This document shows, piece after piece, positions 60,249-63,365 of a stretch of 63,365 bases of DNA. The position numbers and the translations under genes are program-made. Positions within the stretch are counted from its first letter, which is position 1. Each line of letters starts with the position of its first letter. Origin of the DNA: Pseudomonadota bacterium (GTDB taxonomy: Bacteria; Pseudomonadota; Gammaproteobacteria; Xanthomonadales; SZUA-36); the NCBI GenBank assembly GCA_015222805.1, contig JADFVZ010000109.1:1-63365 (forward strand). Direction: 5' to 3'. The notes below the pieces were generated by a model. That model made no database searches and had not been told where the DNA came from. It was given only the letters and a program-made list of their open reading frames with translations.

Positions 60249-61061
60249 TTACAGCTCCATGTCCCTGGCATCGCAGCCACACCAGGCGGCGGTTCCGGCG
60301 GTTTTACACAACGCTTCTTTGTCGAGCAATTCAACCAGTTTGCGATCGACCTTGATCAGGCTCTTTTTCTGGAACCGCGCCAACACCCGGCTGACAGTCT
60401 CTGTTGCCAGTCGCAGGTAGTTGGCAATATCGGCACGCGACATGGCGAGGTTGAATTCTTTGGAAGAATAACCGCGCGCTTTGAAGCGGGCAGCCAGTCC
60501 CAGCAGGAAAGCAGCCATGCGTTCATCGGCCGTATGATCTGCTGCAGCGGCCGAGAGGTCTGAAATGCGGCGGCTCAACAGACGGAACATGTGGTTTTGC
60601 AGTTCTGGAATTTGCTGGGCCAGGGTGGTGACGTCGTTATATTGCAACTTACACACACTGCTGGTCCCCAGCGCTGCCGCATTGCTTACATGGGCGCCCT
60701 GGTAAATTGCATCCAGGCCAAGTAACTCACCGGCGAGGTGGAAACCCAGCACCTGTTCACGCCCGGCGGCATCAACAACATAGGTTTTAAAGCAACCGGA
60801 ACGAACGGCATAGATATCAGAAAAGTCATCAGCTACACGGAACAGGTGGTCACCGTTATGCAGTGGTCGGGATTTATGTACTATTTTTTCGAAGGTTTCA
60901 ACCTGTGGCTGATTCATGCTCGCCGGCAGGCAAAGCTTGCCCAGGCCGCATTTTGTGCAGGCAACATGGGATACCGAAGTGAGTACAGGGTTACTTTGCC
61001 CGGGGGTCCTGGGCTTTTGCCCGCTTGCTGTTGCCTTCTGTACCAATCGCTGATCTACCAT
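60249..61061 (-). CDS. fnr: FNR/Anr-type oxygen-sensing regulator
   Basis: A 270-residue CRP/FNR-family activator. The [4Fe-4S] ligands of FNR are present as C35-x2-C38-x5-C44 (ACTKCGLGKLC) and C137 (SSVCKL). The cyclic-nucleotide-like sensor follows, and the helix-turn-helix ADIANYLRLATETVSRVLARF has the E-x-x-S-R bases-reading motif that recognises TTGAT-N4-ATCAA. The extreme C-terminus, ALCKTAGTAAWCGC, adds three cysteines, unusual for FNR. It lies 112 bases downstream of hemN on the same strand and 74 bases downstream of nothing but the korC-like gene start region. Two FNR boxes occur upstream of hemN. Confidence 0.93.
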   Translation of the reverse strand: MVDQRLVQKATASGQKPRTPGQSNPVLTSVSHVACTKCGLGKLCLPASMNQPQVETFEKIVHKSRPLHNGDHLFRVADDFSDIYAVRSGCFKTYVVDAAGREQVLGFHLAGELLGLDAIYQGAHVSNAAALGTSSVCKLQYNDVTTLAQQIPELQNHMFRLLSRRISDLSAAAADHTADERMAAFLLGLAARFKARGYSSKEFNLAMSRADIANYLRLATETVSRVLARFQKKSLIKVDRKLVELLDKEALCKTAGTAAWCGCDARDMEL

Positions 61062-61173: not shown

Positions 61174-62574
61174 TTAAATCACCTTGGAAAAGCGTGTGGT
61201 ATTGCCCGAATGATGCAGGTATTGGTCAAAAACCATGGCAATTGAACGCAACAGCAGACGCCCGCGCGGGGTCACTTCAAGGTAATCATCGGCCAGCTTA
61301 ATCAGGCCATCAGCCGCCTGAACCTTAAGTAAATCCAGTTCTATCGCAAAATGTTTGCGGAAGTGGATGTGGTACTTATGGGAAAAATCATTAAAATCCA
61401 GTCGGTCCTGGCACATGACCTGCTGGATAACAGCCCGCCGCAGCCGGTCTTCATCGTGCATGACCAAACCCCTGGCAATGGGCAGCTGGTTTTTTTCCAG
61501 GCCATTCTGGTAGTCGGCGATTATTTTCTGGTTTTGGGAGTAACAGTCACCCACCTGGCCAATGGAGCTGACACCCAGGCCGACCAGATCACAGCGGGCC
61601 ATGGTGGAATAACCCTGGAAATTACGCTGCAATGTACCCTCATCCTGGGCAATGCACAGCTCATCGGTTTCGAGGGCAAAGTGGTCCATGCCGATATAAC
61701 GGTAGCCGGCGGCGCCAAGGCGTTCAATGGTTTCGCCGAACATTGCCAGCTTGGTTTCAGCGGTTGGCAGGTCTTCAGCTTTGATCAGCCGCTGGGCACG
61801 GAATAGTTCGGGTAAGTGCGCGTAGTTATAGATCGACAGGCGATCCGGGCGCATCGCAACTACCGTATCAAGGGTCTGATTAAAGCTGGTAACAGTTTGA
61901 TGTGGCAAGCCGTAGATCAAGTCCACCGAAATGGATTGAAAACCCTGCTCGCGCGCACGAATCATCAGTGCTTCGGTCTGTTCCGGGCTCTGGATGCGAT
62001 TTACAGCTTTTTGAACAATGGGATTAAAATCCTGAATTCCCAGGCTCATGCGGTTAAAACCCAGGTCGGCGAGCAGGTCGATCCGGTTTTCATCCATGGT
62101 GCGCGGGTCGATTTCAATCGACCATTCATGTTCATCACATGCGGGCATATTAAAATGCTCGCGCAAATGCGCCATCAACTCGGTTAACTGGAGGTCTGTC
62201 AGGTAGGTCGGGGTACCGCCGCCAAAATGCAGCTGTACAACTTTTCGGTCATGGTCAAACAGCTGTGCCTGCAGTTCAATTTCCCGATAAAGCGCCCGCA
62301 GGTACGGAATCGCCTGCTCCGGATGCTGGGTAACTTTCTTGTTGCAGCCGCAGTAGTAACACAGCTCATGGCAAAACGGAATATGTATATATAGTGACAG
62401 CGGGCGCGGAATCAACTCTTCATTGCTGAGTTGAACCTGTTGCTCATAGCTGGGGATATCGAAGCTGTCATTAAATTGTACCGCTGTCGGATAGGAGGTG
62501 TATCGGGGACCCTGTTTATCGTATTTACGAATCAAACCCGCATCAAAGTTAGTTGTTTCCAGTACTGTTTTCAT
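61174..62574 (-). CDS. hemN: Oxygen-independent coproporphyrinogen III oxidase
   Basis: A 466-residue radical SAM enzyme for anaerobic haem synthesis. The cluster motif is CHELCYYCGC (C-x3-C-x2-C-x-C, residues about 68-77), preceded by SLYIHIPF. FGGGTPTYL, IEIDPRTM and MSLGIQDFNPIVQKAVNRIQ are also diagnostic, and the C-terminal HemN domain is present. Length near the 457 of E. coli. A perfect FNR box lies 63 bases upstream at the position of a class II promoter, so expression should rise without oxygen. Confidence 0.96.
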   Translation of the reverse strand: MKTVLETTNFDAGLIRKYDKQGPRYTSYPTAVQFNDSFDIPSYEQQVQLSNEELIPRPLSLYIHIPFCHELCYYCGCNKKVTQHPEQAIPYLRALYREIELQAQLFDHDRKVVQLHFGGGTPTYLTDLQLTELMAHLREHFNMPACDEHEWSIEIDPRTMDENRIDLLADLGFNRMSLGIQDFNPIVQKAVNRIQSPEQTEALMIRAREQGFQSISVDLIYGLPHQTVTSFNQTLDTVVAMRPDRLSIYNYAHLPELFRAQRLIKAEDLPTAETKLAMFGETIERLGAAGYRYIGMDHFALETDELCIAQDEGTLQRNFQGYSTMARCDLVGLGVSSIGQVGDCYSQNQKIIADYQNGLEKNQLPIARGLVMHDEDRLRRAVIQQVMCQDRLDFNDFSHKYHIHFRKHFAIELDLLKVQAADGLIKLADDYLEVTPRGRLLLRSIAMVFDQYLHHSGNTTRFSKVI

Positions 62575-62608: not shown

Positions 62609-62650
62609 AATATAGCTCCTTAAAGGGTGCATGCACTTGATAAAGATCAA
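62609..62650 (-). promoter_or_regulatory. Class II FNR-dependent promoter of hemN
   Basis: A perfect FNR box TTGAT-AAAG-ATCAA (62637-62650, centre 62643.5). On the minus strand a -10 element TATATT lies at 62614-62609, predicting a start near 62602. The box centre is then at -41.5, the classic spacing for class II FNR activation. Confidence 0.8.
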
Positions 62651-62694
62651 TTTAAGTGAAGCTTGATGGTTTACAGGCATGGCAAGACGAAATA

Positions 62695-62736
62695 CTGATC
62701 CAGATCATGTTGCAACACCTGGTTGCGGGCTAAACT
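62695..62736 (+). promoter_or_regulatory. Second, plus-strand class II FNR promoter (predicted)
   Basis: An FNR-like box CTGAT-CCAG-ATCAT (62695-62708, 8 of 10 consensus positions, arms still nearly symmetric; centre 62701.5) is followed by TAAACT (62731-62736) as -10 element. The start predicted at 62743-62744 places the box at -41.5/-42.5. It points away from hemN into a gap with no gene, towards a terminator. Confidence 0.5.
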
Positions 62737-62742
62737 CTCTAC

Positions 62743-62842
62743 CACTGGGGCAGTTAACTCAATGTTCCGGTGCTGAATCTCATATTGAGACTCTCCGTTA
62801 CGGGATATTCTACCGAAGCTGGCAACGGCTTCGGTTTTTTTT
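62743..62842 (+). ncRNA. Candidate FNR-activated small RNA of about 100 nt
   Basis: A predicted transcript from the second FNR promoter to a Rho-independent terminator on the same strand, containing no open frame of note. It has a short internal hairpin TCTCA-TAT-TGAGA (62778-62790), then an exposed CTCTCC (62791-62796) that could pair with ribosome-binding sites, and a terminal stem with a T8 tail, like Hfq-binding sRNAs. FnrS of enterics and PhrS of pseudomonads are known FNR/Anr-dependent sRNAs, but I cannot claim homology. Evidence is positional only. Confidence 0.45.
62812..62842 (+). terminator. Terminator on the plus strand with no coding gene before it
   Basis: ACCGAAGC (62812-62819) pairs with GCTTCGGT (62828-62835) around an 8-base loop, followed by T8 on the plus strand. 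On the minus strand the stem is followed by AGAATATCC, no T tract, so it is not a queD terminator. Its existence implies a plus-strand transcript starting between hemN and this point. Confidence 0.85.
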
Positions 62843-62862: not shown

Positions 62863-63219
62863 TTAGCTACCCCGATATATGCAGCCGGCATTGCAGGTTT
62901 CCTGCACAATCACTTTGCTAAGGTTAGGCAGTGCTGGTTGCAGTTCACGCCAGATCCAGCGGGCCAGGTTCTCGGAAGTCGGGTTTTCAAGGCCTTCAAT
63001 CTCGTTGAGGTAATGATGATCAAGGCGGTCGTACAATGGCTGGAATGCCTGTTTTAGCTCGGCAAAATCCAGTACCCAGCCGCTTTGTTCACCAACATCA
63101 CCGGAAATATGCACTTCAATTCGAAAAGAATGACCGTGCAGCCGGGCGCATTTGTGACCTTCGGGTACATTCGGCAAATGGTGCGCCGCTTCTACCTGGA
63201 ATACCCTGAAAATTTCCAT
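62863..63219 (-). CDS. queD: 6-carboxytetrahydropterin synthase QueD
   Basis: A 118-residue enzyme of the PTPS/QueD family (queuosine precursor synthesis). The zinc histidines are in [10 protein letters not shown] (about residue 15) and [13 protein letters not shown] (about 29-31). The remaining core is [25 protein letters not shown], and the catalytic glutamate region is [12 protein letters not shown] prefer the ATG at 63219, sharing one base with the hemL stop (TGATG), over a GTG one codon earlier. It is thus translationally coupled to hemL. Confidence 0.93.
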
Positions 63220-63365
63220 CACAATTCTCGGAAACAGGCTGCTGCAGCAGCGATAGTTTCATCAATCAACTGATCCGTATGCGCCTGGGACATAAACCCG
63301 GCCTCATAGGCAGACGGCGCCAGGTAAACCCCGCGCTCCAGCATGCCGTGGAAAAAATGCTTAAA
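63219..63365 (-). CDS. hemL: Glutamate-1-semialdehyde 2,1-aminomutase, C-terminal end only
   Basis: The last 48 codons of a gene that continues beyond the window. On the minus strand they encode [20 protein letters not shown] followed by [20 protein letters not shown] and an end in CFREL, matching the C-terminus of HemL (typically FxxFFHxMLxxGVYLAPSxFEAGFxSxAH). HemL makes 5-aminolevulinate, the first haem precursor. It is upstream of queD, overlapping its start by one base. Confidence 0.93.

Follow-up and report, generated by a model that had tools for sequence, protein, structure and literature searches.

Does the space between hemN and queD in an uncultured Xanthomonadales-type bacterium hold a gene of its own and, if so, what would that gene do? 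We addressed this question for positions 62695-62842 of a 63,365-nt stretch of DNA, referred to below in its whole length as the window, from the genome assembly labelled G000. The locus had originally been predicted to encode a new member of the functional class of oxygen-responsive sRNAs under FNR control. Our comparative analysis agrees with the assignment to this class, makes the case stronger than originally claimed, and found no homologue among the Rfam families; in our judgement, the locus most probably encodes a stand-alone, FNR-activated, trans-acting sRNA of about 100 nt with a Shine-Dalgarno-masking seed.

Results

The neighbourhood of the locus

The surroundings of the locus comprise the following features:

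60249..61061, minus strand: fnr, oxygen-sensing regulator (NCBIfam NF008365, 233.8 bits, cut-off 228)
61174..62574, minus strand: hemN, oxygen-independent coproporphyrinogen III oxidase (NCBIfam TIGR00538, 599 bits)
62637..62650, minus strand: perfect FNR box in the divergent promoter of hemN, TTGATCTTTATCAA (read on the plus strand as TTGATAAAGATCAA)
62863..63222, minus strand: queD, convergent neighbour of the sRNA (NCBIfam TIGR03367, 112 bits, cut-off 89)

The suspicion that hemN is FNR-controlled and that fnr itself lies close by proved well founded, as the hemN box is perfect and NCBIfam identifies the regulator as a true Fnr. The fnr gene follows hemN, two genes away from the sRNA, and its product is the presumed activator of the latter. 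The hemN box is located exactly 22 bases before TATATT (62613-62608) and is one of 17 perfect TTGATNNNNATCAA sites in the G000 assembly, compared to a single match of the reversed control pattern; these 17 sites constitute a ready-made list for the FNR regulon of this organism. Relative to two congeners, the window carries a 21-base insertion, GGTTTACAGGCATGGCAAGAC, at 62668-62688, between the hemN and sRNA boxes, which are 58 bases apart in the window and 37 in the two congeners.

The promoter of the sRNA

Two elements make up the predicted promoter:

62695..62708, plus strand: FNR-type box CTGATCCAGATCAT, degenerate in the window, at a fixed 22-base distance to the -10 element and with homologous boxes in relatives
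62731..62736, plus strand: -10 element TAAACT (TAAAAT, TACACT, TATACT or TAGACT in relatives)

The spacing of exactly 22 bases between box and -10 element is identical to that of the hemN promoter and, together with the position of the box, puts 41.5 bases between the box centre (62701.5) and the predicted start at 62743. The coordinates given for this arrangement in the original prediction were correct, and every one of the 19 homologous loci has the same layout. Two doubts had accompanied it, of which one stands in part: the box agrees with the consensus at 8 of 10 positions, with two mismatches to TTGATNNNNATCAA, and is weak when taken alone, since sequences with up to two mismatches occur at close to chance frequency (48 matches in the window versus 32 expected, about one per 1.3 kb). 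The other, a -35 spacing of 15 bases, is a minor worry: a good -35 element is dispensable at class II FNR promoters, in which the box lies at -41.5.

The core TGA[CT]N4[AG]TCA is rarer than the two-mismatch class. Combined with TANNNT at 21-23 bases, it occurred six times on both strands of 400 kb of one relative, that is in 800 kb of strand-bases, so that any one stretch of 60 bases would contain it by chance with a probability of about 5e-4. All 19 homologous loci carry this core 21-23 bases before the -10 element, 16 of them at 22 bases. The boxes of the relatives, among them TTGACTCAGATCAA, TTGACCTAGGTCAT and ATGACTCAGGTCAA, are often near-consensus, as is TTGACTCAGATCAA, and those of the sister genomes follow a near-consensus TTGAC-N4-ATCAA pattern; the box of G001, CTGACCTATGTCAT, is weaker than that of the window.

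Structure of the predicted RNA

Downstream of the promoter we delineate the RNA and its parts as follows:

62743..62842, plus strand: predicted sRNA of about 100 nt, conserved in the same genus (start site inferred, 62741-62744)
62743..62772, plus strand: 5' hairpin of 10 pairs, all kept in three species
62790..62796, plus strand: predicted anti-Shine-Dalgarno seed ACTCTCC, the core of a conserved motif (GACUCUCC); no other internal block is as conserved in the sRNA family
62812..62842, plus strand: intrinsic terminator with a U8 tail (10 pairs, 4-base loop, 8 T)

As had been noted before, the roughly 100 bases between the -10 element and the terminator of the window contain no credible gene and end in a strong terminator that operates on the plus strand only; the minus strand has no run of T. 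Short ORFs occur sporadically among the homologues and their frame is not kept; with no conserved ORF, a dual-function RNA encoding a peptide was rejected. The RNA body of the window folds with a predicted energy of -38 kcal/mol (z = -4.95), which none of 200 shuffled sequences equalled. Across three species, the 5' hairpin shows one pair changed on both sides and four on one side, and the terminator stem is invariant within the window's genus; in relatives the stems differ, with a terminator always present. All pairs hold in the three sequences of the window's genus, which are too few for a covariation test. The alignment of the ten sister sequences (A4) has 98% of its cells paired and six pairs changed on both sides, a level of covariation reached by none of 500 shuffles, while slid partners pair at 26-43%. 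In the predicted fold of the window, the CUCUCC motif is largely paired (mean unpaired 0.29); in the sister clade, it is part of an invariant loop hairpin, AGACU-CUCCA-AGUCU, the CUCC loop of which is predicted to be fully exposed.

Conservation and distribution

A DNA search of 61 genomes yielded matches in the window's genus only, where the RNA body has a mean column identity of 93%, compared to 79% upstream of it (window and two genomes of the same genus). A covariance model built from three sequences of this genus (R1) found a fourth congener at an E-value of 4.6e-11 and, in a different genus, a match in G004 that is marginal and sits at the expected position. When 30 loci upstream of hemN were read, an equivalent sRNA gene emerged beside hemN in most genera of the window's family. 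In total, 18 other genomes of this family encode a homologue beside hemN, giving 19 copies from nine genera, all of which have an FNR-type box, a -10 element, a 5' hairpin, a CUCUCC-like motif and a terminator; the homologue filter required the box, but the only candidate that it removed was a chance match (L046). The family layout consists of the box, the -10 element, a hairpin, often ACGATTGTGT, then GACTCTCC, and the terminator. As the original prediction had required of it, box, -10 element, terminator and CUCUCC are kept in relatives that retain the locus, and the remainder varies.

The gene is also kept where queD is not the neighbour; in G006 (L024) it is inverted, running in the same direction as hemN, with promoter and terminator retained, and a probable copy in a tenth genus (G012, L032), with box and CTCTCC, lies about 0.9 kb from hemN. 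The inverted copy and the probable copy apart from hemN indicate that the sRNA behaves as a gene of its own. The covariance model of the sister clade (R2) does not by itself reach the window copy, and the link between the two rests on G002 as an intermediate, on the marginal match in G004, and on the shared position, promoter and motif.

The family is narrowly distributed. When 84,980 species representatives were scanned for the sister-clade motif as a pattern, it turned up in 13 MAGs, which carry the labels Lysobacterales, Xanthomonadales, Chromatiales or Gammaproteobacteria, and in one chance match. Searches of 250 order-level genomes with R2 and of 274 class-level genomes with R1 returned no true copy outside the window's family. 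The weak matches at the order level (L068, L070-L074, L076 and L077) and one at the class level, downstream of a glutamine synthetase-like gene (L282), were rejected as terminator-only, and the pattern match L046, from Bacteriovoracaceae, as a chance hit with which neither an FNR box nor a terminator was found. Within the family, G005 and most members of genus g8 lack the sRNA in the hemN-adjacent slot. Three of the g8 loci without it (L021, L027 and L029) have an FNR-type box beside hemN, such as CATGACTTGAGTCATT in L021, which precedes an apparent TonB-dependent receptor gene, as judged from its N-terminal residues only. Upstream of hemN in G010 (L025) we observed CTGACACACGTCAA, followed after 22 bases by TATATT and then by a hairpin whose loop reads CCCCTCC and by a terminator; this element is possibly a strongly diverged copy of the sRNA or an analogue.

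At both gathering and permissive thresholds, Rfam searches with the window and its homologues gave nothing credible and no family above threshold, and the literature we searched, which left many subscription papers out of scope, contains no report of the family.

The seed and its candidate targets

Judged by its sequence, the conserved seed is most likely anti-Shine-Dalgarno in kind, pairing with purine-rich GGAGAG. A search for TTGGAGAGT before ATG in the ten sister genomes returned fnr in five of them. In all ten, 7-10 contiguous bases at the fnr Shine-Dalgarno are complementary to the sRNA loop, ACUCUCCAA; five genomes have TTGGAGAGT exactly, and the others differ from it by one or two changes. 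The leader flanks around this stretch have diverged. Among 288 leaders of one genome, the fnr leaders rank in the top 0.3-3.5% by duplex energy and in the top 3% by contiguous run. When 18 genomes were searched more broadly for GGAGAGTC, bacterioferritin (bfr) came up in four; bfr pairing is good in six of nine sister genomes and weak in the other sister genomes and in clades b and c. The bfr leaders of sister genomes (L246-L253, L255) often read (C)TGGAGAGTC, which is complementary to the sRNA loop. Since purines abound in any Shine-Dalgarno sequence and the leaders used as background were few, the predicted fnr and bfr pairings are suggestive, and we regard them as leads. Neither extends to the window's genus, where the fnr leader has no complementary Shine-Dalgarno; within this genus no conserved target was found apart from oppC, which we rejected because, in our reading of the frame, its conserved GGAGAGTC falls into the end of the preceding coding frame.

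It is conceivable, if rather doubtful, that the main role of the same RNA gene is local feedback, such that the FNR-activated sRNA would block fnr translation and thereby limit FNR build-up under anoxia. The complementarity within diverged flanks in every sister genome and the high rank of the fnr leaders speak for this possibility, as does the lack of GGAGAG before fnr in the family members without the sRNA (genus g8 and G005). However, GGAG is part of an ordinary Shine-Dalgarno, the leaders of clade b are of the GGAGG type and offer only about four pairs, and those of the window's genus do not pair at all. Moreover, the similar complementarity of bfr in several sister genomes implies that fnr is not a unique match.

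Discussion

We favour a broader role in trans. From the sequences we infer that the sRNA is transcribed, that FNR binds its promoter, that Hfq is used, which targets are paired and in which direction the effect goes. Under low oxygen, FNR would activate the sRNA from a class II promoter, with its box centred at -41.5, divergently from the FNR-driven hemN promoter. The CUCUCC of the sRNA would then pair in trans with GGAGAG-type Shine-Dalgarno sequences of other mRNAs, probably with the help of Hfq, such that translation of a set of mRNAs would be lowered when oxygen falls; Hfq is encoded in G000, and in 15 of the 18 genomes in which it was sought. In the sister clade, fnr would be one likely target, resulting in a negative feedback in which FNR induces the sRNA and the sRNA represses fnr. 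A more far-reaching idea, which we put forward as speculation, is that fnr, hemN and the sRNA form a compact, vertically kept oxygen-control module, the sRNA of which silences fnr in several genera and has had its seed retargeted elsewhere. An sRNA-based FNR feedback loop is not reported in the literature searched.

Could a different protein be the activator? The sites bound by FNR, ANR and DNR are almost identical, and the sRNA box of the window is less canonical than the hemN box, so one might envisage that another protein of the CRP/FNR superfamily, such as an NO sensor of the DNR type, acts at the sRNA promoter, and FNR on hemN only. We consider this improbable, given that an NCBIfam Fnr is encoded two genes away, that the boxes of the sister genomes are near-consensus, and that the geometry of the sRNA promoter equals that of hemN. 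That there is no separate gene, just a chance promoter-like stretch next to the terminator of queD, is very unlikely in light of the comparative data: the box alone is within chance expectation, but the terminator functions on the plus strand only, opposite to queD, nine genera keep the promoter, the body and the terminator as a set, even without queD as neighbour or in the inverted copy, and the ten sister copies covary.

The gene, its promoter architecture, its conservation and covariation, and its restriction to one family can be read from the genomes themselves. On firm comparative grounds, an sRNA family that had not been listed, carried by a group of uncultured Xanthomonadales-type bacteria, is hereby added to the small set of sRNAs controlled by FNR or ANR, which supports the view that oxygen-controlled sRNAs evolved independently in unrelated lineages. 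Its fixed locus provides defined, testable candidate targets, fnr and bfr, in the sister genomes.

How does this sRNA compare to known systems? The RsaE and AbcR types have C/U-rich loops that mask Shine-Dalgarno sequences, and resemble the hemN-locus sRNA in their use of a short, pyrimidine-rich loop as a seed for GGAG-type ribosome sites; sequence, structure and control are different, however, and the hemN-locus sRNA has no Rfam match above threshold. PhrS of Pseudomonas aeruginosa is likewise under FNR/ANR-type control, in its case by ANR, but is longer and contains a small ORF, of which the hemN-locus sRNA has no conserved counterpart. FnrS of Escherichia coli and relatives is an FNR-activated sRNA that represses messages dispensable without oxygen (PMC8139620). 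It is a short noncoding RNA under FNR, and we propose the same logic for the hemN-locus sRNA, which differs in its family-specific locus and its pairing motif CUCUCC; a scan with all 4227 Rfam models, presumably including that of FnrS, gave no FnrS match in the window or the homologues. SicX (PA1414) of P. aeruginosa is induced at low oxygen via an Anr motif, base-pairs and acts on translation, activating ubiUVT by opening a leader hairpin in a reportedly Hfq-independent manner (PMC10247376). Compared by control and mechanism alone, the two have the low-oxygen logic in common, but SicX activates, while the Shine-Dalgarno-complementary loop of the hemN-locus sRNA points to repression. In kind, the hemN-locus sRNA is most probably an FNR-controlled sRNA, distinct from the FnrS and PhrS families.
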